Positions 21,541-45,673 of a stretch of 64,000 nucleotides of DNA are shown one piece after another. The stretch spans positions 558,001-622,000 of the forward strand of contig CANXME010001985.1 in the NCBI GenBank assembly GCA_948144175.1. Direction: 5' to 3'. The translations under genes and the position numbers were made by a program. Source of the stretch: Closterium sp. NIES-65 (Eukaryota; Streptophyta; Zygnematophyceae; Desmidiales; Closteriaceae). Position 1 is the stretch's first letter, and every line of letters starts with the position of its first letter. Under the pieces are notes generated by a model. The model had not been told where the DNA came from. It saw only the letters and a program-made list of their open reading frames with translations, and did not search any database.

Positions 21541-21780
21541 CTGCGTTCAGTTCAGTGTTGTTCGCAGAGCACAAGAGGGTGGTCAGAGTGTTAAGGATGG
21601 ATAAACAGGAACAAGCTTGGGCCGGTTGGATGAATGAATTAAATAATAAGTATTCTTACAACGTGCTGATCTAACTGCAGAGGCGCCTGAAGAATATTCA
21701 ACCAAGAATGCCAAATTGTCAGAAGCGCATTTCAGTCTTCCAGAAGCTGCTGTGAAGGAACTTGTTTGAAGACGTCTCAA

Positions 21781-21985
21781 ACAGTCATGGCTGTGTTAGG
21801 CCCTAACTCCCATCAGCAGTGCATTGTTCAACCACAGCAACTGCCATGGCAGCCACCCGCCCATTCAGCCTTCCTGAAGCTGGTGAAACGGAATAAAACA
21901 GTCATGGCTGTGTTAGGCCACAACTCCCATCAGCAGTGCATTGTTCAACCGCAGCAACAGCCATGGCAGCCACCCGCGCACTGAG
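21781..21985 (+). repeat. 117-bp tandem duplication overlapping the kinase 1 C-terminus
   Basis: CAGTCATGGCTGTGTTAGGC occurs at 21781 and 21898, and about 88 bases after it match. The right copy is the last 27 codons of the kinase gene with its stop; the left copy lies just beyond the stop. An imperfect palindrome, TTTGAAGACGTCTCAAA (21765-21781), touches the left copy. Confidence 0.85.
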
Positions 21986-23392
21986 TCTTCCCGAAGTCCG
22001 CTGGAGCTTGCAGCCGTGTCGTCTCAACGGAGAGCTGTTGCACAGAGAGAGTTTGCTGACACATGGTGAGATCTTGCTGGCACATGGAGAAATCTTCTCA
22101 GCAGCACACGGAGAGAGCTTCCCAGCAGCAGATGCGCCATGGAGACGCCACTGCTTCTGCCGAAGCACGTCGGATGCAAGCTTGCGGCACGACTTGACCG
22201 TGCTGCACGTGGTTCTGTACGTGGTCTTGATCGTGAGCGTTGCAAGCGGGAACTTTAAGGCAGAGGAGGGGGAATCATCATCAGCAGGAGGCAAGGGACC
22301 CTTAGTGGATGCAGCAGCAGCAGCAGCAGCAGCAGCAGTTGTGCTGGAAAATGAAGGTGCAGTTGTGGTAGCAAATGAAGTCGCAGGTTGGATGGCAAAT
22401 GCAGGGGGAAGTTGGACAGCAGAAGCAGCCTTGGGAATGCTTCTGGGAGAACCTGAGCCGGAGAATGAAGATGGAAACAACGAGGCGCCGCACACCCAAG
22501 GGTCATTCAGAACGTCATCTATGTACGGTCGGATCTGCGGGTCGGTTGCGAGCATCGAACGGATGAGATTCTTCGCTCGGCTCGAGATGATCCACCAGCA
22601 GGGAGAGTCCCAGTCCTTGCTCTCGTCAAACGCGCGGCGACCGTTCGCGAAAGTCGGCCATTGTCCCGAAAGCATCGCGTACAGGGTAACACCGAGGCTC
22701 CAAATGTCTGCAGCGAAATCGTATGATTTTCCCGCCAAAACCTCGGGAGCCTCGTAAGGGGAGCTCCCTGCATAGCCGTCGATCTTCTCCCCCGGCGCAA
22801 GCACCTTCGCGATTCCGAAATCCGCGAGTTTCGTGGCGAATTCGCAACCTCTGAAGTCGCACGCACCCATGAAGTCGCTTATTAGGGTTGATCTTGGAGA
22901 CCTACTGTGTGAACCGCTTTCAGATGACATTCGCCGAAGGAGAGAAGTTTTGGCGGGAAACAAAAGAATGTTGTCGGGTTTGACGTCACGATGAATAACC
23001 CCGTTATAGTGGCACTGCTTTAAAGCCATGGCGATTCCTTTGAACAGCTCACGCGCCTCGGACTCCGGAATCCGTCCCTTCTGCTCTATCCGCGTTAGAA
23101 GGTCCCCGCCGGTAGCGAGCTCCATTACAAGCACCATCCCCCTCCCACCCTCTCCGATATAAGCATCCTCGAGAGTAACGATATTTTCATACCCTTTCAG
23201 GAGCGAAAGAGCCGTTACTTCCCGTTGCGCCGCGTCAACCGCTTCCTTTCGCGCCTCTACCACCTTGCAGGCGAGTCGCCTGCCGGAAACGCGCTCCGCG
23301 CACTCCGCAACGACGCCGTACCGCCCCTTTCCCAGATCACCCCTGATTTCGTACTTTTCCGCGAAGGCGCTCAGGGAGTTGCGCTGCGCCAT
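21902..23392 (-). CDS. Ser/Thr protein kinase 1 (CAMK-type, PEPC-kinase/CDPK-like catalytic domain)
   Basis: Single-exon gene of 496 residues. The catalytic domain (about 14-300) is complete: Gly loop GKGRYGVV (21-28), Lys43, Glu58, HRDVKPDN (134-141), DFG (191-193) and APE (215-217). About 49 residues separate HRD-x-K-P-D-N from DFG, against 13-14 in most kinases; the extra Ser/Arg-rich loop lies just before the activation segment. No EF hands are present, so it is not a complete CDPK. The tail (300-496) has a poly-Ala run coded by a GCA microsatellite, then FPLATLTIKTTYRTTCSTVK and short repeats of the form K-x-SPC-x-S/A. Kinase 2 at 41701 shares insert and tail, so both are under some constraint. 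Substrate unknown; PEPC kinase is only the nearest type I can name. Confidence 0.85.
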   Translation of the reverse strand: MAQRNSLSAFAEKYEIRGDLGKGRYGVVAECAERVSGRRLACKVVEARKEAVDAAQREVTALSLLKGYENIVTLEDAYIGEGGRGMVLVMELATGGDLLTRIEQKGRIPESEARELFKGIAMALKQCHYNGVIHRDVKPDNILLFPAKTSLLRRMSSESGSHSRSPRSTLISDFMGACDFRGCEFATKLADFGIAKVLAPGEKIDGYAGSSPYEAPEVLAGKSYDFAADIWSLGVTLYAMLSGQWPTFANGRRAFDESKDWDSPCWWIISSRAKNLIRSMLATDPQIRPYIDDVLNDPWVCGASLFPSSFSGSGSPRSIPKAASAVQLPPAFAIQPATSFATTTAPSFSSTTAAAAAAAAASTKGPLPPADDDSPSSALKFPLATLTIKTTYRTTCSTVKSCRKLASDVLRQKQWRLHGASAAGKLSPCAAEKISPCASKISPCVSKLSLCNSSPLRRHGCKLQRTSGRLSARVAAMAVAAVEQCTADGSCGLTQP

Positions 23393-25318: not shown

Positions 25319-28300
25319 TTAGCTACGGTACATCCCTCTGCTGCTGCCTTTTCTGTAGATCAGCAGTGCCACAACAACCAGCGATGCTACAGCCACCAGC
25401 CAGGCCATCACTAGGGCCGTCACACAACCGCCCGGCACGAGACCAATGAGCATCTGCCACGTGGCATGGGTTGAAGGGGCGAGTGAGTGAATGAATCATT
25501 GATAGAGTGAGGGAGCGGGTGGGCGGTGACAAGTTTCAGCCAAGTCATGTGGCTCAAAACAAGACTAGAACTTTCAAGGCACATAAAACGATGAGCAAAG
25601 AGGGCCAAATAGGAGCAAGGAAACTCCCGAATACTGCTGCTGCTGCTGCATGAATCCCAGGAGCCTTCATCTCTTGAGAGGGAAAAAAACTTATAGGCGA
25701 CTCAACACGCACGGCAAAGAGGAGAAGCAGGTTCAAGGAAACTCACACACACTGCTGCGGCTGCATGAATCGCAGGAGCCGTCATCTCTTGAGGGGTGGA
25801 GGGAAAGGAGAAGCGCCATTCTGACACCTGCCCAGCCTGCCCGACCTGCCCTAACTGCCCAAACTGCCCCTCATCTGCTGCTGGTGTGCCCCCTGCTGCT
25901 GTCTCTGTACCCCTTAGAGGCTGCCTCTCTTGCACTGCCTCTGCTGCTCCGCTCGACTGTATTCCTGGAGGGAGCTCTGTCCCCTTTATAAGCTGCACCT
26001 TGTGTGCGTCATAAGCCAGCACCATTCCCAGGGAGTGTATTATGAGGAACGCTGCAGAGGCTATGGCTGGAAAAGAAACGGATGCAGAAAGCAGAGGGAG
26101 AGAGGATGGTTCGTCACTTTAAGGAGCTCTTTTTAGGGAGGATGTGGAAGAGGGAGAAAGGAAATGGGAGTGGAGAAATAACAAGCACCACCCCCGGGGT
26201 GTGTATTATGAAGAATGCTGCTTGGGTTGGGCCTATGAATTTTGAGGTGCCTCAAAAGTTGTATACACCACCAGCACCATTTTCAGGGTGTGTATCGTGA
26301 GGACTGCTGCAGAGCCTATGGCTAAAACCGGGGGGATGGGGAGGAGAGAAGGGAGGGAGAACAAGAGTGTGGAGGAGGAGCAGGAGTAGAGAGAGTTCCC
26401 TGCCCAGTCCCCACCCTCCCCTCCCCCACATGCACCTGCTAGGAGCACGAGGGGCCGCTGGGGGCAGCGCCAGGAATAGAAGGCTGGCAGGCCCGGCGCT
26501 GGCGCTGACACTCTAGGTTCACTGGCGCTGACACTCTAGGTTCACTGGCGCTGACACTCTAGGTTCACTGGCGCTGACACTCTAGGTTCACTGGCGCTGA
26601 CACTCTAGGTTCACTGGCGCTGACACTCTAGGTTCACTGGCGCTGACACTCTAGGTTCACTGGCGCTGACACTCTAGGTTCACTGGCGCTGACACTCTAG
26701 GTTCACTGGCGCTGACACTCTAGGTTCACTGGCGCTGACACTCTAGGTTCACTGGCGCTGACACTCTAGGTTCACTGGCGCTGACACTCTAGGTTCACTG
26801 GCGCTGACACTCTAGGTTCACTGGCGCTGACACTCTAGGTTCACTGGCGCTGACACTCTAGGTTCACTGGCGCTGACACTCTAGGTTCACTGGCGCTGAC
26901 ACTCTAGGTTCACTGGCGCTGACACTCTAGGTTCACTGGCGCTGACACTCTAGGTTCACTGGCGCTGACACTCTAGGTTCACTGGCTCTGACACTCTAGG
27001 TTCACTGGCGCGTGAGGAGGCTTCCTTTCCCCGACCCAGTCTAGAGGCGCCTAGAGTGTCCCTAAAACTGGAACCTAGAGTGTCCCTTCCCAGATCCAAC
27101 CTCCAGGGAACCTAGAGTGTCAGGAGCACACACTGACTGCAATGAAATACCTGCTAGGAGAACAAGGGGCAGTTGAGGGCAGCGCCAGGAGTAGAAGGTC
27201 GCGGGGCCGATGGCGGGTGAGGAGACTCCTCCCTCCCCACATCCCACTTTTCCCACCCTTGTGCATTCTGGTCGTACCTACTGAGTGGAAAATACCTGCG
27301 AGCAGCACGAGGGGCAGTTGAGGGCAGCGCCAAGAGGAGAAGGTCGCGGGGCCGATGGCGGGTGAGGAGATACCCCCTTCCCCACATCCCCCCTTCCCCA
27401 CATCTAATACTAACTAAGTAGGTCGTACCTGCAAGCAGCACAAGGGGCAGTTGAGGGCAGCGCCACGAGTAGAAGGTTGCTGGGCCGATGGCGGGTGAGG
27501 AGACGCTGAGGAAGAGGAAGAGCGAGTGGGCGATCCCATGGCCCAGACCGGAAGCTGTAGTTTAGAGGATTGGGGGACGGAGGGTTGGGGGGGAGGAGGG
27601 GAGAGGGGGGGGTTGTGCAGGGATGAGGAAAGGCAAGGCGGGGTAGTGTGAGGAAGGTGGCAGGAGCCTAAGGTGCGATGGCGGGTGAAGAGACGCTTTT
27701 GAGTCGACTCAAAAATCGCCTCATCACACGCGGAAAGGCAAGGCGGGGTAGTGTGAGGAAGGTGGCAGGAGCCTAAGGTGCGACTTTTGAGGCGCCTCAA
27801 AAGGTGGCAGGGGCCTAAGGTGCGATGGCGGGTGAAGAGACGCTGAGGAAGAGGAAGAGGGAAGGATTGAGCGATCCCATGGCCCAGCTGTAGAATAACG
27901 GAAGGGTAGGGGGGCAGAGGGTGGTTTGCTGCAAGGATGAGTGTAGACAAGGTGGGGATACTGCTGAGGAAGAGGAGGAGGGGGTGAGTGATCTCATGCC
28001 TAGAACAGTAGTCGTAGAAGATGGGGGACAGGGAGGTGGGGTGTACTTGCTTAGATGATACTTACAGAGAGAAAGATGGAAGGTGTTGAGAGGGGAGAGC
28101 GGGGGCAGGCGTCTTGCAGTGGCTATGGTGTTCAGACCGCGCTCTAGGCGACTGGATGGGGTGGGGGGGACAAAGGGAGGAAGAATTAGGGAGGAGGAAA
28201 GCGAGGGGACATTGACGGATCACAACAGGTGTCTTGCAGCAGCTATGGCGTCTAGAGCGCTCTCCAGACGACTGGGTGGGGTGGGGGGAACAAAGGGAAG

Positions 28301-29584
28301 GTAAAAAAGGAGGAAGAAGAAGGGAGGAGGCAAGGAGAAAGGGTCATTGACAAATCACAACAGGTGTCTCACAGTGGTTATGTCGTTTAATTTAGACCAC
28401 GTTTTAAGCGACTGGGGGTAGGGGAAAACAAAGGGACGGAAAGAAGGGAGGAAGTGAAAGGGAGGAAGGAAGGAATTGGGGGAACAAAGAAGGGAAAGCG
28501 GAGTGTCAAAGGAAGATGCCTACAAGGGAATGCTTGGAAGAGGGTGCATACGGCAGAATGCTCTTGAGCAGCGACGGCAGAGAGGATGAGGAGGAAGAGG
28601 AAGGAGCGGAAACAGAAGCATCGGAAACAGGGGATTGACTTAAGGGAGGCGCGGGCTAACAAGAGTATTTGGCAGAGCAGCTGGCGGGAGACCTCTTGAC
28701 CAGCAACAGCAGAGAGGATGAGGAGTAGGAGGAAAAAGAAGTGGGAAGTGCGGGTGCTTACACCAATATACCTACAAGAGTATTTGACAGAGCAGCTGTC
28801 GTGAGACCTCTTGGGCAGCGACAGCAGAGAGGATGAGGAGGAGGAGGAAGAAGTCGGAGAGAGCAGTGAGGGCGATGAAGGGACGCCAAAAGAAGGCGAT
28901 TGCGAGGAGGGTGATGAGCCAATAGAAGGTGCTGTTGGTGGGGGGGAGGGAAGAATGGGGAGAGAAATGGAAGAGTGGAGGGAATACTCAAAGCGAGCAG
29001 TGAGGGCGATGAAAGGACCCCAGAGCAAGGCGATTGCGAGGAGAGTGATGAGCCAATAGAAGGTGCTGTTGGTTGGGGAGGAAGGAGAGGAGGTTAGGAG
29101 GGGGAGGGGATGGAGAAAAGGGAGGATACGCTCGGAGAAAGGAGTGGGGTTAATGGAGGGAAGAAAGGTAGGGAGAGGCGAGGGAAAGGGGAGGGGGGGG
29201 GAAAGCGCAAAGTGTGGTGTGGAGGGATGGGGGGTGGATTCGAAGACGGGAGGATGAGGTGAGACAAAATGGGGAGCAGAAAACGAGCCGTTTCGAGCTG
29301 CTTCGAGGAACGAGACCAGAAAAAGAAGGGGAGACGACACCCTGCTGGTTAGTGGCCACAATCCGGCAATTCATTAAATGCTATATGATGCTAAAAACAT
29401 GTGACTTGCCGTGACTGTAAACACCTGGTGAGAGTAACGAGCGATTGTTGAACGAGAGCGACTGTAAGCACCTGGTGAGAGTAACGAGCGAGAGGAACGC
29501 CTGTCGCGACACGGTAACGGCGATCACGGCAATGGCCGGTCCGAAGCCAATCAGAAACGCGCCGCAAAACGCGGCGAATGTCAT
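25319..29584 (-). CDS. APH1: APH-1, gamma-secretase subunit (7 exons, 238 aa)
   Basis: Exons (minus): 29472-29584, 28776-28931, 28066-28151, 27429-27554, 25999-26066, 25753-25785, 25319-25453. Phases agree at every junction and sum to 239 codons; plant APH-1 is about 250. APH-1 is the seven-helix scaffold of the gamma-secretase intramembrane protease. Seen here: a hydrophobic start with FLIGFGPAIAVI, FWRPF after helix 2, QEVSRQLL in helix 3, RLERGL in the loop, GLGHG (121-125; the family GxxxG), GPATFYSWRC, His171 in helix 5 (IIHSLGMVLAY), His190 in helix 6 (APAIH) and helix 7 ending YRKGSS. Those two His are conserved in the family. Introns hold partial copies of nearly every exon. A second exon-6 candidate exists at 25635-25670, and a second exon-2-like copy at about 28975-29052. 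Exon choice for those two rests on resemblance to the family. Confidence 0.85.
25635..25670 (-). other. APH1: Alternative copy of APH-1 exon 6
   Basis: 36 bp, phase 0 at both ends, reading MKAPGIHAAAAA against MTAPAIHAAAA in 25753-25785. It keeps the conserved Pro-x-Ile-His, the CTCAAGAG acceptor and a GTATTC donor, so either copy could be spliced to exon 7 without a frameshift. Confidence 0.65.
26190..26325 (-). repeat. Two partial copies of the APH-1 exon 5 region around a palindrome
   Basis: Copies of the exon 5 start (GTGTATTATGA...GCTGCAGAG on the plus strand) lie at about 26190-26222 and 26271-26325. Between them is TTTTGAGGTGCCTCAAAA at 26240-26257. The genuine exon is 25999-26066. 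Confidence 0.75.
26501..27013 (+). repeat. 23-bp homogeneous tandem repeat in APH-1 intron 4
   Basis: Twenty-two copies of a 23-bp unit containing GGCGCTGACACTCTAGG, with starts every 23 bases from 26501. Only one unit shows a base change (GGCTCTGAC near 26985). Remnants of ACCTAGAGTGTC follow at 27040-27120. Near-identity means recent expansion or homogenisation. Confidence 0.95.
27142..27368 (-). repeat. Two partial copies of APH-1 exon 4 end
   Basis: At 27142-27230 and 27288-27368 the minus strand repeats the exon 4 end (GPATFYSWRCPQLPLVLLA plus a GT donor) with few changes. A more diverged copy lies at about 26430-26490. Upstream exon parts are missing, so they look like decoy exons rather than usable ones. 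Confidence 0.75.
27627..27895 (-). repeat. Three direct copies in APH-1 intron 3 separated by two palindromes
   Basis: A block containing GGCAAGGCGGGGTAGTGTG and GGAGCCTAAGGTGCGA occurs at 27627-27696, 27732-27783 and, in part, 27803-27857. The junctions hold TTTTGAGTCGACTCAAAA (27697-27714) and CTTTTGAGGCGCCTCAAAAG (27784-27803). A partial copy of exon 4's start (GHGIAQS) follows to 27895. Confidence 0.85.
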
Positions 29585-30539
29585 CTCGGCCGACCAATCG
29601 TCGGTCGAGGATAGGCTGAGACGATTCTAAAGTTCCAACTAACCCATATGGCTGATAGATTTTACTTGCCGAATAACACTTCTGTGATGAAAATTCGTTT
29701 CGCCTGATGGTTTCTGGATGTAAATCGCCTGATAACTCCAGATTCCGGAGCCTGGAAGTACAGGGCGGGTCCAGCACGTACATTTAGGGCGGGTCCAGCA
29801 CGTACATTTAGGGCGGGTCCAGCACGTACGTATTCCGTACATTACAGTTCATCCAGTGCGGTAATCTGTATTGCGTCACGGTTCGGAACGGTGAAATTTT
29901 ATTACCATTGTGCACCGTTTGATATCTTTTGAAACCACAACAAATAAACTGCATAGTACCTGTATATGTACGCGCTGGACCCGCCCTTACAGCTCTTGTA
30001 CAGTTCATCCTCGTGGTTTAAGACGATATCAGGCGGCGCACAGCGGTTCTCAATCTTCACCGCTTTGCACCGTGACACATGACGAATAACTGCACATAAT
30101 GAACTGAACCAGCTGAACATGGAAGCTGCGTTCGCAATGTTACCGTCGAGCGACAACATCCACTCCGGGAGTCGATCCTTGCTGATCAGGGTCGCTTCTT
30201 GTGTCGACCGTGTGTCAGAATTTCTTTTCTCGTTCATTCACAGGTTCACGCCCCTGGAAAGGGCCGGGATTCGGATTTCTGGTAAATCGATAAGCCTACA
30301 AAAGCGTGCATTAGACTCTTTTTGAGTAGTTAAATCTCTAATCTAAAAACGTAAAAGTAAAGGTAGGCATTTCCTCCCTAAATCCCTAAGCCTCTGGAAG
30401 CACTTTGCCTCAATTATCACAAATCCGTGGCCACTGCGAAGTGTACACCTATTTCCAGCTTTTGCAAGGATGCCATTTCATTTATGCATCCCTCCATCTA
30501 GAAGTTTAGAACCACAGCACACCACACCCTGTGCATCCT
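29585..30539. other. Intergenic region with a 24-bp triple repeat
   Basis: Between chorismate synthase stop and APH-1 start, both on the minus strand. AGGGCGGGTCCAGCACGTAC repeats three times with a 24-bp period at 29761-29830. An inverted copy, GCTGGACCCGCCCT, lies at 29974-29987. This could be a small fold-back element of about 230 bp. No gene was seen. Confidence 0.5.
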
Positions 30540-33500
30540 TCATTGCTCGCTATACATAGCAGACTGCTCCATCACTGTAGCTTCCCGCTGGTTACCGCCC
30601 GTAACACTAGCAGCACCAGCAGCAGGGGCGAGGGCTTCAGCAGGCAGCAGGTCGCACTGAGCCACGTGCTGCAGCAGCTGATCCGCTAGGACTAAGGCAA
30701 CCATCGCTTCCACCATTGGGACAGCTGGAGAGAGGTGAGTGGGGGAGAACAGAACACGAGCACAAGGGAAAAAACACTTGGGAGGTGAGCAGGTCGCACT
30801 GAGCCACGTGCTGCAGCAGCTGGTCAGCCAGAACTAAGGCAACCATCGCTTCAACCATTGGGACAGCTGAATTGACAGGGGGAGGAAAGGAGGGAAGGAG
30901 AGGAGAAGGAAAGGAGCTGAGTGGTAACCATGAGCAGGCAGCAGGTCGCACTGAGCCACGTGCTGCAGCAGCTGATCCGCCAGCACCGCTACCATTGCTT
31001 TGACCATGGGGACCGCTGGAGAGAGGGACGTAAGGAAGGGAAGAGCAGAAGAGGAAGAGGGGCGAAGGAAGATGAAAAGAACAAAAACGAATACCCTGGG
31101 AGGCAAGCGCATATTGCAAGTGAATACCACGTGCCATGGTCGTTGATCCATAGTCGTCTTGATTCGATTTGATTTGATTTGATTTGATAGCGCAATGGCT
31201 ACAACCTCGGCCAGACCTAACAGCCCGATTACCACAACCCACCTCTGGGCACCGCAACCCACCTCTGGGCACCACACAGGGATCATGCCGGCCACGCGCC
31301 TTAAGCTCTGTCTCCACGCCCTCGCGAGTCACCGTGCGCTGACTCCTCTGTTGACGTGCAGAGAGAGGCAAAGTGGGGAAAGAGGAAGAAAGTTGATCAG
31401 GCAAGAAGCCTTATGCTTTGGGGGTTAGCATAGTGAACCCGCATGCCTTGAGCTCTGTATGTTTTTTGAGAATTCTCAAGAAACATACACCACATGCCTT
31501 GAGCTCTGTCTCCACACCCTCACGAGTCACCGTGCGCTGACTCCTCTGTTTAGGTGCGAAGGAGGGGAAAAGGGGGAAATGATGAACGGAAGTTTTTGAG
31601 AAGCCTTTTTCTTTGGGGGTCAGCATAGTGAGTGTCCACGCCGTCACAAGTCAGAGTCTTGAAAATCTGAGGCATCACGAGTTGTTGTTCGGGATCCATT
31701 CCTGAATGCCCCTGCATGCTCAGTTGGTGCTTGCACAAGTGTGCAAGAGTCAAGAAAGCATGATCCAGTCCAGACTCACCGTGATGGTGGAAGTGGGCTT
31801 GAACACCACGCGCACCACAATGTTCTCCCCGTTCGAGATGCCCCCCTGAATGGCCCCCTGAATGGCCCCCTGAATGGCCCCCTGAATGCCCCCCTGGATG
31901 CCTACACTGTTGTACCAGCCTGGCACTGAATGCAATTCAACACACACATACCGGGATGGTGGAAGTAGGCTTGAACGCCACGCGCACCACAATGTTCTCC
32001 CCATTCGAGATGCCCCCCTGAATGCCCCCTTAGTGGCGAGCGGCTGAGTGGAGAAAGACGCACGCGTCCTGCTGCGTCCTGCGTCTGGACGCTGCGTCCA
32101 GACGCAGAGACGCAAGACGCGCGTCCAGACGCAGGACGCACACTGAATATTTTTTCCGGGCTGACCGGAAAAAAAATTGTTGCCCCAGCGCGAAATTGAC
32201 CCTAACGATTTCGACGCGACTGTCAATTTCGCGTCATGTCGACCCCCCCTAACCCATTTCGACCATCAAAAACACCCTAGAGGGTTTACCAAGACAATTC
32301 TCCTTCGTAAACCCTAAACCCTGGAAATTTGAAGAGGACGATTTTGCCTCAAATGTGTGCATCTTCCTTCCCCCCCCTCCCCCCTTCCCATACCCTACAA
32401 CATCATTTTTCGGCTGCCCGGGGGTTTTTTTTGCCCTGCCTGGGCATGCGTCTTTTCATGCGTCCTAAAGGCCCTCCTCTAGCGTCCTGCGTCTAAGATG
32501 CTGCGTCTGGACGCATGCGTCCTAGACGCAGGACGCGTCTTTCTCCACCCAGGCGAGCGGTTGGTGGGTTGTTCCTCACACATGCACACACTCGACAACC
32601 AGGATCAACCTGAGTATCCAACTAGCAGTTATGCTGCACGAAAGACTCACCGTGATGGTGGAAGTAGGCTTGAACGCCACGCGCACCACAATGTTCTCCC
32701 CGTTCGAGATGCCCCCCTGAATGCCCCCCGAGCGGTTGGTGCGAGTGCGAATGGCACCATCGGGGGCAACATAAAACTCGTCATTGTGCTCGCTTCCCAA
32801 CATGCGCGTGCCTGCAGGAATGGGAGGGAGAGGGGGGAGGGGCAGGCCATATCACAGGAAGCAGCTGAGAGGGGGGAGGGGCAGGCCATATCACAGGAAG
32901 CAGCTGAGAGGGGGGAGGGGCAGGCCATATCACAGGAAGCAGCTGAGAGGGGGGAGGGGCAGGCCATATCACAGGAAGCAGCTGAGAGGGGGGAGGGGCA
33001 GGCCATATCACAGGAAGCAGCTGAGAGGGGGGAGGGGCAGGCCATATCACAGGAAGCAGCTGAGAGGGGGGAGGGGCAGGCCATATCACAGGAAGCAGCT
33101 GAGAGGGGGGAGGGGCAGGCCATATCACAGGAAGCAGCTGAGAGGGGGGAGGGGCAGGCCATATCACAGGAAGCAGCTGAGAGGGGGGAGGGGCAGGCCA
33201 TATCACAGGAAGCAGCTGAGAGGGGGGAGGGGCAGGCCATATCACAGGAAGCAGCTGAGAGGGGGGAGGGGCAGGCCATATCACAGGAAGCAGCTGAGAG
33301 GGGGGAGGGGCAGGCCATATCACAGGAAGCAGCTGAGAGGGGGGAGGGGCAGGCCATATCACAGGAAGCAGCTGAGAGGGGGGAGGGGCAGGCCATATCA
33401 CAGGAAGCAGCTGAGAGGGGGGAGGGGCAGGCCATATCACAGGAAGCAGCTGAGGGGTTGGTGCGAGTGCGGATAGCCTCATCTGGGGCAATGTAGAAAT

Positions 33501-36500
33501 CATCGTTGTGCTCGCTTCCCAGCATGCGCGTGCCTGCAGAAGAGAGAATGAGAGATGGATGGGATGGGTGAATGAGGACCGTTGCGTGCCTGTAGGGGAG
33601 GTGGTGGAAAAAGGGATATAGGGGAGGAAAGTTGAGGCTCAGATCATAGGGATATAGGGGAGCGAATGCAGCTGGTCCTGTCTGGAGCAACGTAGAACTC
33701 GTCGTTGTGCGCACTGCCCAGCATGCGCGTGCCTGGGGGGTGTGGTGGTGTGGGGAGGCACGGAGGGAAGAAGGTGCTTCACAGTGAGGAGTGCAGAATG
33801 CTGCCCTGAATGCCCCCGAGCGGTTGGTGAGTGTGCGGTGCGGATGGCACCATCTGGGGCAACGTAGAACTCGCCGTTATGCTCACTGACTAGCATGCGC
33901 GTGCCTGGGGGGAGTGAGGGGCGAGATGGGGGGGGTGTGAGAGGGGATAAAGGCCAAACACGTGAGTGCGGATGGCACCATCCGGGGCAACATAGAACTC
34001 ATCGTTATGCTCACTGACTAGCATGCGCGTGCCTGGGGAGTGGGTTGGGGCAGGAGGCGGGGGGGAAGGGGGAAGGGAGCAAGCACGAGAGGGCAAGGAG
34101 AAGGAGAAAAGGGGAAAGTGAAGGGGAGGAGTGTGGCCCCATCTGGAGCCACATAGAACTCGTCGTTTGGCTCACTGCCTGGCATGGATGTGTCAGCAAT
34201 GAGGCATCGGTGTGTGATGGCTTTTGAGTCGACTCAAAAGTGAACTCGTCGTTTCGCTCACTGCCTGGCATGGATGTGTCAGCAATGAGGCATCCCTGTG
34301 TGATGGATGGGTGGGTGGTAATCGAAACTGTGCAACTCCCAATGCATCACATCACACTGTGCAACTCCCAATGCATCACATCACACTGTGCAACTCCCAA
34401 TGCATCACATCACACGACTCGGAGGCGCAAGAAGGACCAATTAATTATTTGAGAATTCTAAAAAAAACACAGAATCCTTTTCACGCAGCTGGATCATGCA
34501 TGAATTGTCCCTTTCCGAGGCACACAAAAACCTACCTGAAGCGAGGTTGTTTTTGAGACGTCTCAAAAATCATGCACGAATTGTCCCTTTCCGAGGCACA
34601 CAAAAACCTACCTGATAAAGAATTTATCAGGCATAGAAGAAGCAGGTCAGGAATCTTGTTTTCGTCCAATCGAGCCCCACTTAGAGGCCATGGGTCGATA
34701 CGTGGCAGCAATGCCTTGAGGTGACTTTTGAGTCGACTCAGAAGACACCATATTAGGCATAGAAGAAGCAGGTGAGGAATCTTGTTTTGTGAAAGCATAC
34801 CTGAGAAGCCACTCCCGATCTCAAACCCCTTAGTGGCGGGCAGAGACAAGAGCGAGTGACAAGAGGGCATGGAGCACGGGCATCGCCGGGGGGGAATACA
34901 CACTGAGAACAATCTCAAACCCTTTAGCAGCGCATCACAAGGCATACCTGAGAAGCCACTCCCGATCTCAAACCCCTTGGTGGCCGGCAGAGACATGAGC
35001 GCCCGTGCTAGCTCGGCCTCTAGCTTGTCAAACACAGGCGAGCCCAGACCCTGGTGGGGAGAAAAAGTGGGAGAGGAAAGGAGGAATGGTTGGAGAAGCG
35101 CGGAGAAAGGAAGGGTGAGAGACATGAGCACCCATGCTAGCTCTTGATCCTGCTACCCAAGATGGTAGCACTTCACACTCCTCCATACCCACCCCACTTA
35201 CACAGCGCTTTAAACAGGGAAGCCCACAGGGGCACAAGCTTTGCTACTCAGGCAGGGGCCGTGGGGGCGAGTGACGGGGGGCGCGGGGGTGAGTGATGAC
35301 TACGCCTCTTGCCATCAGCTCTAGTTGCTGCTTACCCCCGACCCGATACAGTTTTTCTAGAGCGAAAGCAGCCAGCCACCGCCCACCACCCTTTGAGACG
35401 TCTCAAAACACTTCTTGATACTGACGACTACACGGCTAGCCATCAGCTCTAGTTGCTTACCCCCAACCGACCCGACACAGCTTTTCTAGAGTGAAAGCAG
35501 CCACCACCACCCTTCTTCTCCACACCCATCTCACCCGAGGGACGTTCCTGGCCACGCACGTGACCACGCCGCCACACGAGTCGCCCTTCACCCTCACAGC
35601 GTCAATCGCATCGATCATCCGCTCTGCAATGGCGGCATCGGGGCAACGTACGATGTTCGCCTCAACCTGAGCCAGGGTGGGGAGGGGAGGGGGAGGAGGG
35701 GAAAGGGTGGATAGGGGGGGGGGGGAGGAGGGGGGGGTGGGTTTCCCTTTCCCCTTCACCCTCACAGCGTCGATCGCATCGATCATCCGCTCTGCAATGA
35801 CAGCATCGGGGCAACGTACGATGTTGGCCTCCACCTGAAAAGAAGACGAGCATGAGGCGAAGAAGTGGGTGATGAGTTTGCCATACATACATCCTCACAG
35901 CATCAATCACTGGCATTGATCATCCCCCCCCGCCACTGCCGCATCGGGGCAACGCAGCGCACTATGTTGCTCTCCACCTGAAAGGAGAGGAGAAGGAGGC
36001 GAAGGAACGGGAGCAGAGGGCGCACAGTACGATACACATCAGCAGTGCAGTGAGTTGCCCTTCATCCTCACAGCATCAACCATTCGCTCTGCAACTGCCG
36101 CATCAGGGCAACGCACTATGTTGCTCTCCACCTGATATGGTGGCAACAGAGAGCGGGAAGGAGCGATGGTGGGTGAGGTGGGGCAGGGGAGGGGGGGTGA
36201 GGGACGGGACCCAGGAGAGAGGAGCGCCCTTCACCCTGACAGCATGAAGGGCATCAACCATTCGCTCCGCCACTGCCGCATCAGGGCAATGCACTATGTT
36301 GCACTCCACCTGATGGTGGTAACAGTCAGGGAAGAAGCACAGTAGAAGTGAGGAGAAGGGGAACCACAGTAAGATCAACATCAGGGGGCAGGGAGGTCCG
36401 GAGCTTCACGCTCACAGTCCCACCTGGTCTAGTGCGACTGTATCGAGATTGGTGGCATGCTCTGGCAGGTCAAAAGATAGAGCGTTAAAAAACATTTGCT

Positions 36501-39500
36501 TGTTTGCTTTGCAGTCATCCTTCCATTATGATCCCATGTGGTCCAGTCCGGTGTGACTGTATCGAGGTTGATAGCGCCCTCCCCTCCTCTGGCAGGTCGA
36601 CAGATGGGAGTGTCAGAATGTCTTGTTGATTTCACTCACTCACTCACACTGCGTAATTCGCATTCGACTTTTGAGTCGACTCAAAAGAATGTCTTGTTGA
36701 TTTCACTCACCCACACACACACACTGCGTAATTCGCATTCGTCTCTTCGTTGTAGTACCACCTACCTACCTGGTCCAGTGTGACTGTATCGAGGTCGATG
36801 GCATCCTCTGGCAGATCCACGTGGTGCACTTGAGAAACGAACGCGATCACCTGGTGAGAGAGAAAGGGGGGGAGGAGGGGGGAGGGGAATCAAGAAGAAG
36901 AGGGGGTGGAGGACTTGAAGGAAGAGGTCACTAGCATCCTCTGGCAGGCCAGGTCTACATGGTGCACTTGAGACACAAACAAACGCGAGCACCTGACGAG
37001 AGAGAGGGGTAGAGAGGGTGGGGGAGGGGAAGGAAGAGGAGGGGGTTAAGGATTCTAATAGAGAAATAGAGAGCAAGACTCTGGCAGGACTACATGTTGA
37101 GTTTGAGACACAAAGGCCAGCGCCTAGCCAGGGCCTAAACACGGATAAGACAAGCCATGCCAGCCAAAAGGTCGAATAAGAACTCACGAACACAGACAAC
37201 AGCAGCTTACATCGGTGCCTGAGTGGAGGGCCAGAAGCTTCTTGGCAATTGCGCCGGCCGCCACTCGGCCAATAGTTTCACGAGCTGACGACCTGCCTCC
37301 GCCCTGAGCGTGTGGGGGAGAAAATGGTATTGTGAGGTTTGGGTTTGGGGGAGAGGGGGAAGGAAGGGGGAGGGAAGAGAAGGCGTGTTTGATGGAAAAA
37401 CACACTGTGCTCAATAGTTTCGCGAGCTGATGACCGGCCCCCGCCCTGAGTGTGGGGGGGAAGGAAGAGAGGGAGGAGAGGAGCAGTGTGATGGGAAGAG
37501 AAGACAGATGCAACGCGCACGCTCAAGTTTTGAGACGTCACGTCTCAAGACTCGGCCAATACTTTCATGAGATGACGACCCGCCTCCTCCCTGATTGTGC
37601 AGGGGAGGGTGTTGTGAGGTTTGGAGCGGAGGGAAGTGGGGGTAGAGAGGGGAAAAGTGCAGGGAATTGAGGAATAACAGTGCACTGCATGCTCATTGGT
37701 GGCTCGAGCTGACCTATGTAAAACATGTAGTTCACGGCACAGCGAATCGAGAGATGGGGAGCATTTGGTCGTCTGACTCTTCATCCCTCCCTCCTCCTCC
37801 TCACCTGAATGGCTCGCGCGCCGTACTTGAAGTCGTACGTTGCATCGGCGTGGGAAGGGCGGTAAGCACGTTTTGAGATGTCTCAGCATTCATCCTCACC
37901 AAATTGGCTTGTTCATCCCTCCTCAGTCTCACCTGAATGGCTCGCACGCCGTACTTAAAGTCGCATGTTGCATCAGCAAGGTGACTTGGGTCTTGTGCGT
38001 TGACTCAAAAGTGACGTCTCACTCACCTTCATGCCACCTCCCCCTCATTTGAATGCTCCTCCATCCCTCACTCAGTCTCACCTGAATGGCTCGCACGCCG
38101 TACTTAAAGTCGTATGTTGCATCGGCGTGGGAAGGGCGGTAAGCCACTGCAATCTCAGAATAGTCCTGAAAGGGATGGGGGTTGGTGGAAGGGGGATGAG
38201 GGATGAGGGGTTGGGGAATGATGACGAGAAATTCATGGGATTTACAGTGTTAAGAGAAACAAGCAAAGTACACCCACCCCTTCCCCCATTGCTCCTCTCT
38301 TCAACACACCCCTTCCCCCTCTCTGCTCCTCTCTTCAACACACTCTTTCCCCCGCTGCTGCTCCTCTCTACCACACACCCCTTCCCCCGCTGCTCCTCAC
38401 TTCCACTCACTCCCTCCCCCTCTGCTCCTCACTTCCACTCACCCCTCTCCCTCCTTTCATCTCTTCCACTCACCCCTCCCCTCTGGTCTTGGTTTGGCAC
38501 GAGAACCGCGATTGGCGTTCCAAGCGTCACCCCTGCAGACGATGACCGGGGAAGCGGAGAGGAGAGTGAAGAGAGTGGGGAGAGCGAGGAGGAGAGACAG
38601 GAGAGTGAGGAGGGACAAGGGAGTGAAAAGATTTCTGTGAGTGAGGAAAATGAGAAGATTGAGAAGGTGAGAAGAGAGGATAGGATAGAGTAGGGAGAAT
38701 GAGAAGAGTGAGGGAAGTGAGGAGAGCGAGGAGAGCGAGGAGGGCGAGGAAGAGAGTGAGGAGGGCGAGGAGAGTGAGGAGGGCGAGGAAGAGAGTGAGG
38801 AGGGCGAGGAGAGTGAGGAGGGTGAGGAAGAGAGTGAGGAGGGCGAGGGGGAGAGTGAGGGGGGCGAGGGGGTGAGTGAGGAGGGCGAGGAGGAGAGTGA
38901 GGGGAACGTGAAAGAGAGTGAGGAGATTGAGGAGAGTGAGAGGAGTAAGGAGAGACAGGAGGAAAGAAAGAACAATAACGACGTACCTTCAGCAGTGCCT
39001 GACAGAATCCGGCACGTGTCTGTCTCCTTGCGGGGTGTGGTGATTCGCGACTGGCCCGGCCGACTGCCAGAAGGAGAAGGGAGAGAAGGTGGTGGGGGGG
39101 GGGGGGGGGGAGGGGGAGGGGGGAGAGGGGGGAGGGGAGGAGGGGGGGGTCAAGAGAAAGGGGGGGAGAGGTAGGAAACGGAAGGTTTGAGGTGATTTGA
39201 CAGGCGAATTCAACCGGCACGTGTCTGTCTCCTTGCAAGGGGTGGTGATGCGGGACTGGACTGGCCAACTGGTAGGAGAAGAAGTTAGCGAGAGGTGGGG
39301 TAAGCGAAAAGGGGAGAGTTAGGAGACAGCATACAAGACAGAACAAACAAACGAACAGACCACAAAACAAAGAGATTTACCCTCAACGAGAATCCATCCG
39401 CAATGCCACGGCCGGGCCAGTCGTGCTTACCACCTGTCCAGATCGACCTAAAGGTTTTTCTCTGTGAGCGGCAGACGTGTTCCCACCCATCAAAACACAG

Positions 39501-40363
39501 GGACCCCAACAAGGCTTCACTGGAGCATTGTGAAAAGCACATCTCGAAGCCGTTTCGAATTTACATACCGCCGCCAGACCAGGTCGACCCGGAGGTCCTT
39601 CTTTTGGAGCGGCAGATCGTGCTTCGAGTGAAAGAAATGAACTCCACACTAACTAAAACTCATCCGCATTGCCACATACCGCCTGTCCAGGTCGACCTAG
39701 AGGTCCTTCTCTGTGAGCAAGAGACGTGCTTCGAGTAAAAGGGTACAAAATAAAACTTAACCCTAACTACAACTCATCCGCATTGTCACATACCGCCTGT
39801 CCAGGTCGACCTGGAGGTCCTTCTCTGTGAGCGGCAGGCGCGGAGGGCAACCGTCGACGACGCAGCCTACCCCTCCGCCGTGCGACTCGCCAAATGTGGT
39901 AACCCGAAATGCGGTGCCGAAAGTGTTACCCGCCGCGCGGACAGCTGGAATTGGCGACAAATCAAGCAGAAACGATCAGAGGGTGAAATTACATTTACTT
40001 TGAATTGAGAAGAGAAAAACAGCAAGACGCGTGCGCCAATCAAGAAGCGGGAACAGGAGCACTTTAAAGTCAACAGCCAATAAAAAAGCGGAAGCGGGAG
40101 CAAGAATTGGAGCTACGGAATGGAGGATCGCGAGAGACGTTAGAAGAATGGTTCGATAATGTACTCAGATTCCTTCGATTCGGAGTGGTTCGAACCAATC
40201 GTTGTCCGGCGTCAAGGCCCGAGCTTTCCCCGAAGAACGCGCCTCGCGAGACGTCATTCCGAGCTGATCCTTTCAAGAACGACCTTCGAGGCGCGCTTGA
40301 CGGACCGCCGCGAACTAACGGCGCGAGGGCTCTGCTCGTGGTGCACGCAATGGCAGCCTCCAT
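30540..40363 (-). CDS. Chorismate synthase, plastid form (12 exons, 469 aa)
   Basis: Last shikimate-pathway step: 5-enolpyruvylshikimate-3-phosphate to chorismate, needing reduced FMN, in plastids. Exons (minus): 40165-40363, 39794-39944, 38987-39063, 38474-38532, 38082-38165, 37211-37303, 36770-36850, 35535-35666, 34948-35050, 32651-32811, 31263-31347, 30540-30724. All phases match and sum to 470 codons with the stop. Exon 1 (66 aa, Arg/Ser/Ala-rich, few acids) looks like a transit peptide. Signature motifs: FGESHGGG (84-91), [12 protein letters not shown] from exon 3, [14 protein letters not shown] (172-185), [10 protein letters not shown] (191-200), [27 protein letters not shown] and [10 protein letters not shown]. 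The first donor (GTACAT) is the least certain junction. Every intron I inspected carries partial copies of a neighbouring exon, so automatic gene prediction will probably go wrong here. Confidence 0.93.
30793..31018 (-). repeat. Two partial copies of chorismate synthase exon 12
   Basis: The start of the last exon (VPMVEAM...[13 protein letters not shown]) is repeated at about 30793-30872 and 30950-31018, each with a CAG acceptor. The copies lack the true end of the gene. Confidence 0.8.
31440..31555 (-). repeat. Partial copies of exon 11 around a palindrome
   Basis: GCATGCCTTGAGCTCTGT occurs at 31441-31458 and, as ACATGCCTTGAGCTCTGT, near 31493. Between them is a 13-bp-arm palindrome centred on GAATTC (31459-31487, one mismatch). 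The right copy extends through most of exon 11. Confidence 0.75.
31775..32035 (-). repeat. Two copies of exon 10 end plus a 12-bp microrepeat
   Basis: The end of exon 10 ([21 protein letters not shown] and its donor) recurs at about 31775-31850 and 31950-32035. TGAATGGCCCCC repeats four times at about 31847-31895 in the first copy. Confidence 0.8.
32044..32551. mobile_element. MITE-like element with terminal inverted repeats and 9-bp TSD
   Basis: About 508 bp. Ends are inverted copies: GTGGAGAAAGACGC at 32048-32061 and GCGTCTTTCTCCAC at 32535-32548, with a few more matching bases outside. It is flanked on both sides by GGCGAGCGG (32035-32043 and 32552-32560). A 9-bp duplication suggests the Mutator superfamily. 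Subterminal parts hold nested GCGTCTGGACGC/GCGTCCAGACGC palindromes. No coding capacity. It lies in chorismate synthase intron 10, within a duplicated exon-10 fragment. Confidence 0.75.
32830..33455 (+). repeat. 39-bp homogeneous tandem repeat next to exon 10 acceptor
   Basis: Sixteen identical copies of a 39-bp unit containing GGCAGGCCATATCACAGG, repeating at 32842, 32881, 32920 and so on. The unit length is divisible by three and lacks stops on either strand, so several long artefact ORFs arise. The array directly abuts the exon 10 acceptor at 32812 and on its other side a second copy of the exon 10 start. Confidence 0.95.
33455..34306 (-). repeat. Six partial copies of exon 10 start
   Basis: Copies of the exon 10 start ([23 protein letters not shown]) lie at about 33455-33535, 33665-33735, 33825-33905, 33970-34033, 34135-34190 and 34242-34275. 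Several keep a GCAG or CCAG acceptor. The last two belong to a 65-bp direct duplication (34156-34220 and 34242-34306) separated by the perfect palindrome CTTTTGAGTCGACTCAAAAG (34221-34240). Confidence 0.85.
34493..34860 (-). repeat. Direct duplications with palindromic junctions, and exon 9 copy
   Basis: ATCATGCA...ACCTACCTGA is duplicated at 34493-34539 and 34569-34616 around TTTTTGAGACGTCTCAAAAA (34550-34569). AGGCATAGAAGAAGCAGGT is duplicated at about 34629 and 34755 around CTTTTGAGTCGACTCAGAAG (34725-34744). A partial copy of exon 9's end lies at 34793-34858. Confidence 0.85.
35296..35512 (-). repeat. Direct duplication with palindromic junction downstream of exon 8
   Basis: A block with CATCAGCTCTAGTTGC and TTTTTCTAGAG(C/T)GAAAGCAG is present at 35296-35390 and 35418-35512. 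At the junction is TTTGAGACGTCTCAAA (35392-35407). Confidence 0.85.
35750..36314 (-). repeat. Four partial copies of exon 8 start
   Basis: The minus strand repeats [15 protein letters not shown] coding at about 35750-35838, 35880-35982, 36055-36135 and 36228-36314. Only 35535-35666 continues into the second half of the exon ([13 protein letters not shown]), so it is the genuine exon. Confidence 0.85.
36420..37130 (-). repeat. Partial copies of exon 7 on both sides of the exon, with a palindromic junction
   Basis: Copies of exon 7 parts lie at about 36420-36472, 36530-36602, 36930-36995 and 37080-37130. In addition AATGTCTTGTTGATTTCACT is duplicated at 36617 and 36688 around the perfect palindrome CTTTTGAGTCGACTCAAAAG (36668-36687). 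Confidence 0.85.
37405..37592 (-). repeat. Two partial copies of exon 6 start around a palindrome
   Basis: [14 protein letters not shown] coding recurs at 37405-37447 and, more diverged, 37545-37592. Between them lies TTGAGACG-TCA-CGTCTCAA (37530-37548). Confidence 0.8.
37803..38030 (-). repeat. Two partial copies of exon 5 end
   Basis: The exon 5 end ([16 protein letters not shown] plus donor) recurs at 37803-37866 and 37932-37978. A degraded palindrome TTTTGAGATGTCTCAG (37871-37886) sits between them, and a split one (GACTCAAAAGTGACGTCTCAC) follows at about 38002-38022. Confidence 0.8.
39206..39727 (-). repeat. Partial copies of exon 3 and exon 2 ends in intron 2
   Basis: One copy of exon 3 lies at 39206-39272. 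Three copies of the exon 2 end ([13 protein letters not shown] region, with the GT donor context) lie at about 39429-39475, 39567-39625 and 39677-39727. All diverge by several bases. Confidence 0.75.
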
Positions 40364-41700: not shown

Positions 41701-43170
41701 ATGGCGCAGCGCAACTCTCTGAGCGCCTTCGTTGAGAAGTACGAAGTCAGGGAGGACCTGGGAAAGGGACAGTTCGGCGTCGTTGCGGAATGCGTGGAAC
41801 GCGCTTCCGGCAGGCGACTCGCCTGCAAGGTGGTTGCGGCGCGTAAGCAAGCAATGGACGCGGCGGGCCGCGAAACGGTGGCGCTTTCGCTGCTCAAGGA
41901 GTGTGAAAATATTGTTACTCTCGAGGATGTCTTTATCGGGGAGGAGGGGAAGGGGATGGTGCTTGTAATGGAGCTCGCTACCGGCGGGGATCTTCTAACG
42001 CGGATAGAGCAGAAGGGACGGATTCCGGAGCACGAGGCGCGTGAGCTGTTCAAAGGAGTCGCCATGGCTTTAAAGCAGTGCCACTATAACGGGGTCATTC
42101 ATCGCGACGTCAAGCCCGACAACGTCCTCTTGTTTCCCGCCAAAAATTCCGCCCTAGGGCAAATCCCCTCAGGAAGCGCTTCACCCAACAGCGTGTCTCC
42201 CAAGGTAACCCTAAAAAGCGACTTCAGGGGACGCGGTTGCGAATTTATGGCGAAGCTCGCGGATTTCGGCATCGCGAGGGTGCTTGCTCCGGGGGAGAAG
42301 ACCAACGGTTACGCGGGAAGCTTCCCTTACGAGGCTCCTGAGGTCATGGCGGGAAAACCGTATGATTTCTCGGCTGACATATGGAGCCTTGGTGTCACCC
42401 TCTATGCGATGCTTTCGGGAAAATGGCCGACTTTCGCGAACGGTCGCCGCGCGTTTGACGAAAGCAAGGACTGGGACTCCCCCTGCTGGTGGATCATCTC
42501 AGGCCGAGCGAGGAATCTCATCCGTTCGATGCTCGCAACCGACCCGCAAATCCGACCGTCCATTGACGAGGTTCTGAGCGACCCTTGGATTTGCAACAGC
42601 TCTTTCCTTCCATCCTCGTTCTCCATCTCTTCTTCTGCTGTGGGTACCGCCAAGCCTGCTTCCTCACCTGTACTACAGCCTGCTGCCTCCACCGTCCCAC
42701 CTGCTGCCTTCACCGTCCCAACAGCCCCTGCTTGCACTGCCACCCCTGTAGCTGCCTTTACCATCAAGCCTGCAGCTGCTGATACCGTCACACCCACTGC
42801 ACCACCTAAGACCCGCCAGCCAGCCACTTGCGACCCGTCATCTACCTTCATCTTCCCACTTGCAACGCTCACGATCAAAACCACGTACAGGACCACGTGC
42901 AGCACGGTCAAAACCTGTAGGAAGCTCGCTTCCGATGTGCTGCAGCGGAAGCAGTGGCGTCGGCACGGCGCGGTTACCAGCAAGCTCTCCCCATGTGCCA
43001 GCAAGCTCTCTCCGTGCAACAGCTCTCTGTCGCGGCGTCACAGCAGCAGGTCGCAGCGAGGTTCCTTCTCTGCTGCTTCAGGGAGGCTGAGTGCGAGGGT
43101 TGCTGCTGTGGCAGTTGCTGCAGTGGGAGAGGCCTCTGCTGATGGGACAGACGTTCAGTGGTCCTTATAG
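41701..43170 (+). CDS. Ser/Thr protein kinase 2, paralogue of kinase 1
   Basis: Single exon, 489 residues. It begins MAQRNSLSAF like kinase 1. Catalytic landmarks: GKGQFGVV (21-28), Lys43, Glu58, HRDVKPDN (134-141), DFG (188-190), then APE. The extended loop between HRD and DFG is present but its sequence differs from kinase 1, while length is nearly kept (Ser/Pro-rich). The tail has a Pro/Thr/Ala-rich linker, then the shared TIKTTYRTTCSTVK block and KLSPC repeats. No EF hands. Upstream context ATCCATGGCG is identical to kinase 1. The two genes point away from each other and enclose APH-1 and chorismate synthase. Complete and apparently intact; substrate unknown. Confidence 0.87.
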   Translation: MAQRNSLSAFVEKYEVREDLGKGQFGVVAECVERASGRRLACKVVAARKQAMDAAGRETVALSLLKECENIVTLEDVFIGEEGKGMVLVMELATGGDLLTRIEQKGRIPEHEARELFKGVAMALKQCHYNGVIHRDVKPDNVLLFPAKNSALGQIPSGSASPNSVSPKVTLKSDFRGRGCEFMAKLADFGIARVLAPGEKTNGYAGSFPYEAPEVMAGKPYDFSADIWSLGVTLYAMLSGKWPTFANGRRAFDESKDWDSPCWWIISGRARNLIRSMLATDPQIRPSIDEVLSDPWICNSSFLPSSFSISSSAVGTAKPASSPVLQPAASTVPPAAFTVPTAPACTATPVAAFTIKPAAADTVTPTAPPKTRQPATCDPSSTFIFPLATLTIKTTYRTTCSTVKTCRKLASDVLQRKQWRRHGAVTSKLSPCASKLSPCNSSLSRRHSSRSQRGSFSAASGRLSARVAAVAVAAVGEASADGTDVQWSL

Positions 43171-44349: not shown

Positions 44350-45673
44350 ATGGCCGGAGGATCTGGTGTTCAGACTAATATGACGGCTGAAGCACAACCC
44401 AACCCGGCTGCGACAAGCGGGAACACGACGACAATCGACTCCGACGTTCTCGCACAACTTCTTCAGCGACTTACCAGCTTGGAGCAAGGACTCCAAACAT
44501 TGCGAAACGGCGATGCGGGAACTTCCTCGCAACCCCCTCAACCGGCCCCGACTGGCCAAACTCTCCCTCGACACCAATGGCTCAACCCCCAAGACTCCCC
44601 GTCCCAGTGAAGAGGCAATTCTCTCCGCTCAATCAAGGTTTCTCAACATATCAAAAATAAAGACAAGTACCTGTTTTGACGGCAGAGACTTCTATACCTG
44701 GAGCTTCGAATTGGAGCTTTTGCTGCAGAACGCCCAAATCTTCCATTACTTCGACGGGAGCTACGCGGAGCCTGCTGAGGATACCGACGACGCCAAGACG
44801 AGGTACTACAACGAATCGCTGATGGCATACGGAGTGATTCTGCGGAATATGTCGGCGGCGGAGCAGCTCAACATTCGTTCGTACAAAACGACAGCTGCTC
44901 CAGCCCTCAACGCCTGGCGACATCTGACAGGCGTGTATCAGCCCAAGGACTCCGTGTCCTCGAGCCGACTACTCCAGGAACTACTGGAAACCAAGATGAC
45001 CTCAGGGGAGAAGGTCAACAACTACCTTAACCGCTGTCGGAGCCTTCGCGATCAAATCGTGAAGTTGGGAAGCACGATATCGGAACAAATCTTCGTCAAC
45101 ATCGTGCTTCAAGGGTTCGGCCCAGAGTGGCGGCCCTGCAAGGCGCTTCTCCGACAGCAGGGGGTCATCTCGGAGGCCGCCCTTTGCGCCGCCCTTCTCG
45201 TCGAACAAAGGGATATGGACCAGCAGCGACCAGCGCCACGACGAGAACGCGAACGGCTCGCCTTCTACGCTGACAACAACGAAGAGCGACGGCCGAGGCG
45301 CCTCTACTGCAAAAGTTGCAGAAATTTCGGGCACCTGGCGGATCGATGCAAACTCCGATCTCGCCCTCGCCAGTCCAATCCGAGCACTTGGACCGGCCGA
45401 CAAGACGCACGAGGCGACGTGCGTCCAGCCCAGGGACAACAACTCCCACCTGCGCGCAACCTGAACCCAGCGGTTCAGCACCAGCAGCAGCAGTCGTCAT
45501 CGACTGCACCAGTTCGCAATGTCATGAGCAACATGACCATGACAAGCGAGTCGCGTCGTCGACGCATGCGCTCACCTTCACCTGAGCCAGCACCACACCC
45601 CATTGGCGCATATATCAACAACAATCCTTTTAGCTCGCGCCGCGACTACACCGACGACGACGACCAGGACTAG
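44350..45673 (+). pseudogene. Element D Gag
   Basis: ATG at 44350 opens a Gln/Thr-rich N-terminus with a short coiled coil (LAQLLQRLTSLEQGLQTL). That frame stops at 44610, while the main Gag continues in another frame (from at least 44600), so there is a frameshift somewhere in 44513-44610, or Gag starts later. The core has the UBN2 pattern FDGRDFYTWSFELELLL and ends with zinc knuckle CKSCRNFGHLADRCK (C-x2-C-x4-H-x4-C). A TAG at 45671-45673 ends it, but the same frame continues into Pol. Confidence 0.75.

Follow-up and report, generated by a model that had tools for sequence, protein, structure and literature searches.

The palindrome family and its host gene

The window analyzed here, a 64-kb stretch of DNA from Closterium sp. 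NIES-65 to which all counts below refer, contains a 12-exon chorismate synthase gene whose introns hold nine short palindromes (Table 1). All three tested pieces of the gene matched Pfam PF01264, and Closterium proteins of NIES-68, NIES-65, and Yama58-4 align to it exon by exon. With the NIES-65 protein no difference was seen inside the covered exons, and the printed identities for chorismate synthase drop where the alignments run into introns. By eye, the start of the predicted NIES-65 protein (P0122) matches an antisense kinase reading (42402-43019, minus strand), so its gene model may be wrong at the start.

Alignment of the palindromes revealed a family of about 12 copies in 26.2-38.0 kb with the layout CTTTTGAG-N-CG-N'-CTCAAAAG, in which N and N' are complementary. 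Searching with TTTTGAGNNNNCTCAAAA at up to three mismatches gave 18 matches in the 64 kb, compared with 1.97 expected and a maximum of 5 in 100 shuffles, while 12 matches at up to two mismatches all fall within 26240-38010, one of them (34447) doubtful. Six perfect palindromes with arms of at least 9 were seen (0.45 expected), five of which belong to the TTTTGAG family, and the plus strand as a whole lists 18 TTTTGAG and 11 CTCAAAA sites. A gapped scan returned 13 matches scoring at least 9, against 1.5 expected and a largest shuffle value of 5, and added four sites, two with flank copies (21765 and 25690) and two without (18122 and 32451). The palindromes of the preliminary description are thus real and its coordinates correct to 0-9 bp: its site 31459 moves to 31464, within a longer palindrome at 31456-31489, 37530 moves to 37528, and 38002 corresponds to 37993-38010.

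That description had also reported constant arms around a self-complementary center, which holds for most sites, although the center is N-CG-N' and not a free NNNN. This center (TCGA, ACGT, or GCGC) is present in seven full-length copies and in 37528, which carries an insertion. In all eight intact N-CG-N' copies the same letter stands in both arms (four T, three A, and one G; p 0.0007 under independently drawn arms), and because the arms agree throughout, the two arms of each palindrome likely come from one source. An AATT center occurs at two sites, 31464 and the doubtful 34447. In the centers GTGC (26240), ATGT (37871), and TTGA (37993) the outer pair is retained; a single change separates each of them from N-CG-N', as would be expected of single C-to-T or G-to-A decays. 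A search for further conservation beyond CTTTTGAGNC gave only a weak YGA outside the arm, and conservation of the outer arm is weak. The 20-bp pattern had no match among viral contigs and eight single matches in eight unrelated prokaryotic records, in collections that may omit records of the window's own genome; the eight matches look like chance. A scan of 24-42 kb with Rfam gave nothing at the gathering threshold.

Table 1. Palindromes, duplicated units, and genes of the window, with the match between left and right flanks of each palindrome
Feature	Position	Strand	Flank match	Remarks
Decayed candidate TTTGAAGACGTCTCAAAC	21765..21782		53/73	Weak flank copies; absent from earlier list
Protein kinase gene	21902-23392			Opposite orientation to kinase 41701-43170
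Decayed candidate CTTATAGGCGACTCAACA	25690..25707		71/88	In 32-bp spacer of duplication 25595-25681/25714-25796
Palindrome, GTGC center	26240..26257		31/41	Weak flank copies 26181-26221 and 26270-26310
Empty-site unit	27627..27697	+		71 bp without inner palindrome; also the 70-bp copy to the left of palindrome 27697
Palindrome TTTTGAG-TCGA-CTCAAAA	27697..27714		52/52	Left edge flush; 17 extra bases before right copy
Filled unit	27732..27844	+		Equals 27627-27697 plus one 42-bp insertion
Palindrome TTTTGAG-GCGC-CTCAAAA	27785..27802 (20-bp form 27784-27803)		41/42	Cleanest event; 22-bp direct duplication on both sides
Chorismate synthase gene, 12 exons	30543..40363	-		Protein alignment
34-bp palindrome with TTTTGAGAATTCTCAAGA inside, AATT center (site 31464)	31456..31489		113/137	Copies 31292-31436 and 31490-31631
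Palindrome TTTTGAG-TCGA-CTCAAAA	34222..34239		62/65	Copies 34156-34220 and 34242-34306
Palindrome TTTTGAG-ACGT-CTCAAAA	34551..34568		46/47	Copies 34493-34539 and 34569-34615
Palindrome, one arm change	34726..34743		36/38	Copies 34625-34662 and 34751-34788; 63 extra bases at left
Palindrome, ACGT center, one arm change	35391..35408		78/95	Copies 35294-35384 and 35422-35512
Palindrome TTTTGAG-TCGA-CTCAAAA	36669..36686		49/55	Copies 36616-36666 and 36687-36741
Degraded palindrome TTTTGAGACGT-C-ACGTCTCAAGA	37528..37550		41/53	Right edge flush with truncated exon copy; weak direct-copy score
Degraded palindrome, ATGT center	37871..37888		54/62	At broken end of exon copy (ends 37867)
Degraded palindrome, TTGA center	37993..38010		62/65	About 15 bp from broken end of exon copy (37977)
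Protein kinase gene	41701-43170			Similar to kinase 21902-23392

Flank copies, short spacers, and an empty site

The sequences to the left and right of 14 sites were aligned over 160 bp and compared with 1704 control positions. The earlier claim that the flanks are direct copies of each other stands at most sites and is weak at 26240 and 37528. Both edges lie within 2 bp of the palindrome at 27785 (nesting allowed for), 34222, and 36669; one edge is flush, with extra bases on the opposite side, at 34551, 27697, and 31464; and at 35391 the gaps are 6 and 13 bp. The copies have no fixed length, measuring 22, 38, 47, ~52, 65, 70, ~91, and ~145 bp. About 25% of the control positions score at least 60, and the fraction of controls equaling or beating a single site ranges from 0.9% (31464) to 99% (34447). 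Because local duplications are so common in the region, flank similarity alone is weak evidence. A junction test, requiring a score of at least 60 and gaps of at most 30 bp, was positive at 7 of 13 sites and at 182 of 2685 controls, which include positions within duplicated units; nesting hides 27785 from this test, which for these reasons carries no weight here. Comparison of the flanks with random positions being indecisive, we used a spacer test and an internal empty site.

The spacer test took as input the 10 local duplications outside arrays whose spacer measures 10-60 bp and which reach at least 78% identity and 30 bits. Arrays were removed by hand using the tandem repeat list, and one spacer boundary (36615/36686) came from the flank alignment. 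The core is present in 6 of these 10 spacers, compared with 0.08 (18-46 kb) or 0.19 (26-38.1 kb) expected by random placement, and six core-bearing spacers were reached in none of 20,000 trials. A seventh spacer (25595/25714) holds the decayed candidate 25690, which was absent from the earlier list and was spotted first by eye within the spacer. A possible decayed copy at 34922-34941 is flush with the duplication 34792/34939 and has a gapped score of 8, but chance alone should produce seven matches scoring at least that high. Candidates at 18122, 3675, 17625, and 32451 were dropped for want of flank copies. A different palindrome, CCTGATAAA-GAA-TTTATCAGG at 34616-34636, noted by eye between two of the palindrome-bearing duplications, seems to belong to the original sequence.

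The empty site lies within a nested pair of events. A 70-bp unit stands on both sides of palindrome 27697. Judging by the nesting, palindrome 27785 later struck the right copy of this unit, and the left copy (27627-27697) preserves the earlier arrangement. Alignment of 27627-27697 with 27732-27844 shows 71 of 71 positions identical and a single 42-bp gap, with no base lost. The gap consists of the 22-bp duplication, the two copies of which differ at one base, and the 20-bp palindrome CTTTTGAGGCGCCTCAAAAG. The insertion thus added palindrome and duplication and removed nothing. This one internal empty site, the single one seen in the window, supports the earlier proposal that an insertion duplicated the flanks.

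The two components also appear to share an age. Across 13 events, with 34447 (no flank copy) and 37993 left out, cores at a greater edit distance from the consensus have more diverged flanks (rho 0.78, permutation p ~0.001). Rho is 0.80 when AATT counts as a legal center, 0.78 for the sites of the preliminary description alone (p 0.004, n = 11), and 0.75 when both sites with weak flanks and both sites found later are dropped (p 0.018, n = 9). As core decay tracks flank divergence, each palindrome and its duplication probably arose together in one event.

Broken exon copies are found at several of the same junctions. The chorismate synthase introns contain about 24 copies, all truncated, of exons of the same gene (30766-39615). 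By hand sorting, 16 of the 24 comprise a 3' splice site and the first part of an exon and stand before the intact exon, while 8 comprise the last part of an exon and a 5' splice site and stand after it. Six of 20 copy ends lie at most 16 bp from a palindrome, versus 1.3 expected (p 0.001); the list of 20 was made by hand and omits three copies of exons 2 and 3, and two of the six ends flank one same palindrome. The right edge of the 31456-31489 palindrome is flush with a truncated exon copy. A duplication that spans a splice site would be tolerated, since the intact copy serves the gene, and would leave exon pieces in the introns. Three copies of exon 8, at 35751, 36051, and 36226, appear to share one break point.

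Neighboring genes and other repeats

Two similar kinase genes flank the chorismate synthase region. Kinase 41701-43170 is 100% identical (rounded; one residue differs by eye) to a partial Closterium sp. NIES-64 protein over 98% of its length, and its next seven matches are likewise from Closterium strains. In NIES-68, the kinase CLOM_g1810 is numbered next to the chorismate synthase CLOM_g1809. Within a chorismate synthase intron, a 501-bp element at 32048-32548 ends in perfect 14-bp terminal inverted repeats (GTGGAGAAAGACGC), has GGCGAGCGG direct repeats on either side, and looks like a miniature inverted-repeat transposable element (MITE) with an ordinary short target duplication. Two tandem arrays, 26499-27011 (23 bp x 22, 99%) and 32828-33454 (39 bp x 16, 100%), are nearly perfect and hence very young or homogenized. 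Copia-type gag and integrase domains are located at 44513-45673 and 54637-55500, and several long open reading frames at 10.6-16.2 kb and 48.4-63.2 kb look by eye like related candidate copia elements.

Possible origins of the palindromes and their duplications

The reading we favor, though tentatively and at somewhat less than even confidence, is that breaks with nicks set far apart took up the palindrome and that fill-in synthesis on their overhangs followed, such that palindrome and duplication came from one event. Nicks on opposite strands, 22 to ~145 nt apart, would open the target, a short DNA with two identical ends would be joined into the break, and overhang fill-in would copy the target on both sides. 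Duplications of variable length that cost the target no bases are indicative of two independent nicks and later fill-in. The inserted DNA would most likely be the joined stubs of a terminal inverted repeat (TIR) mobile element, or a palindromic micro-element of that origin, with the constant CTTTTGAG as the terminal repeat and N-CG-N' as the self-complementary joint. The palindrome is likely a head-to-head union of the two ends, alike in sequence, of a single mobile element, since a transposon's two identical ends meeting over a self-complementary overhang would account for the matching arms. Where the duplication ran over a splice site, the outer copy would become intronic and the exon would stay intact, so that such scars could build up inside genes. 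The preliminary description had offered a TIR transposon footprint and filler made during tandem duplication as separate ideas; the reading favored here combines them.

Several observations weigh against it. No flank copy was found at 34447 in the 160-bp left/right alignment, the flank matches at 26240, 37528, and 21765 are weak, and five of seven further candidates tested (18122, 3675, 17625, 32451, and 34447) have none; the flankless 18122 and 32451 have core scores no lower than those of 21765 and 25690. Very tight edges are rare in the junction test, with both gaps at most 3 bp at 2 of 13 sites versus 39 of 2685 controls. The full core is missing from 4 of the 10 short-spacer duplications, three of which (21779, 24139, and 33838) are also without a candidate, and 19085/19249 is a plain 163-bp tandem with a 1-bp spacer; duplication therefore also occurs without the palindrome. 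Several sites carry 10-63 extra bases beside the palindrome. Among the matches listed, which leave out the end of the 37528 set and any for 37871 and 37993, their only counterparts in the window besides the palindromes and a self-copy at 31464 are short runs. Addition of 37993 to the decay correlation lowers rho to 0.64 (p 0.009), with that site scored at 4 edits where a recount gives 3. No full-length element ending in the arms of the palindrome was noticed in the window, where candidate pairs were assessed by eye; the source is therefore hypothetical, and we infer the joined-ends step. Finally, all of the evidence comes from a single 64-kb window with a single empty site.

Host repair alone is a possible, if doubtful, account. 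Paired nicks would here give rise to the tandem duplications, and an older palindrome nearby would serve as template for the filler, so that the palindrome would spread locally with no transposase. The high local duplication background, with about a quarter of controls at 60 or more, and the many exon copies are as it would predict, as is the clustering of the palindromes in 21.7-38 kb. The filler at 31464, which contains a second 17-bp piece of the neighboring copy, also resembles templated fillers. Copied filler should vary widely, yet the same complete 20-mer recurs, and the three letters at the variable pair would require several source palindromes. Another conceivable but unlikely account is a nuclear micro-element of just 20 bp that spreads through the Closterium genome via an enzyme making freely variable nicks 22-145 nt apart; its splice-site-spanning duplications would render insertions close to exon edges harmless, convert exon pieces to intron, and so drive intron growth.

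Variable duplications with one flush edge recall target-primed insertion. Under a retrotransposition model, both 3' ends of a staggered break would use the 3' end of a single RNA as template, each gaining ~10-12 nt, before being joined at the self-complementary N-CG-N', the flank copies then being ordinary variable target-site duplications as in retrotransposons lacking long terminal repeats. The variable duplication length agrees with this, as does the flush edge with extra bases opposite at 27697, 34551, and 31464. Longer RNA pieces should, however, be frequent, and the extra bases beside different palindromes, several just 10-17 nt, share no clear sequence; we consider the model improbable. 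The dyad symmetry and constant arms could also suggest a homodimer site, that is, a pre-existing target cut by a dimeric nuclease, with repair copying the neighboring stretch beside it. The empty-site unit contains neither palindrome nor duplication, and duplicating a pre-existing site should leave two palindromes, so that this explanation is quite improbable. Constant arms around a self-complementary center resemble a designed oligonucleotide as well, and the preliminary description had raised the suspicion of an assembly or library artefact joining overlapping ends through a linker. This is very unlikely, to the point of being negligible: palindromes and flank pairs have decayed in step, the center varies between copies, and, as given in excerpts of the Closterium genome paper, the NIES-64 and NIES-65 assemblies were made from PacBio Sequel long reads with an N50 of 30 kb (PMC10407611).

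Set against known systems, the perfect 20-bp palindromes have no interior such as that of a TIR DNA transposon or MITE. The target duplications of known TIR elements have a short, constant length (8 bp in the P element), whereas the Closterium flank copies have no fixed target-site duplication length. The repetitive extragenic palindromic (REP) sequences are prokaryotic, carry tetranucleotide tags, and are not known to have long flank duplications. They share with the Closterium family the presence of repeated palindromes, of 20-40 bp in an excerpt of PMC3733652. If two inverted-repeat stubs stay behind at a site, as in P-type TIR excision footprints, the result would be a palindrome whose arms are constant and whose joint varies. 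P element transposase cuts one strand 17 bp inside the inverted repeat (excerpts of PMC7776569), which by analogy may be the nearest precedent known for long end stubs.

For the duplications, excerpts of PMC7971508 credit natural tandem duplications in rice to the repair of adjacent nicks, with insertions enriched at 50-200 bp and the tandem duplication share falling above 125 bp, and excerpts of PMC8355091 describe overhang fill-in yielding small tandem duplications in mouse and human cells. Like these, the Closterium events are local direct duplications of tens to ~150 bp, without target loss in the 27785 event, the sole one with an empty site. The duplications in those excerpts are, however, head-to-tail with no constant insert mentioned (PMC7971508, PMC8355091), in contrast to the constant 20-bp palindrome between the Closterium copies. 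The short palindromic repeats in the organelle DNA of Volvox (PMC2670323) and yeast mitochondrial GC clusters, flanked by AG or ACT only (PMC4478555), resemble the Closterium family, itself from one window, as many near-identical, very short palindromes in noncoding DNA that are thought mobile. According to excerpts of these papers, they differ in being organelle elements, with nuclear Volvox copies thought inert. Repeats of this type would be expected to have no or 2-3 bp target duplications, compared with 22 to ~145 bp in Closterium; the strings "flank," "duplicat," and "target site" are absent from the main text of the Volvox paper (PMC2670323). "Palindrom" is likewise absent from the main text of the Closterium genome paper (PMC10407611), and the layout of a palindrome between flank copies was not found in the listed titles and abstract starts of open-licence literature on palindromes with tandem or target-site duplications, algae, Closterium, or the arm sequence.

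Closterium belongs to the class of algae that is sister to the land plants. If the link between palindrome and duplication holds genome-wide, the palindrome would act as a label on breaks, marking each event in a class of tandem duplications that ordinarily leave no sign of how they arose. It would also offer a testable explanation of how pieces of exons could accumulate in introns at no cost to the gene. Any parent element would have a transposase unlike known TIR transposases in its variable target stagger.

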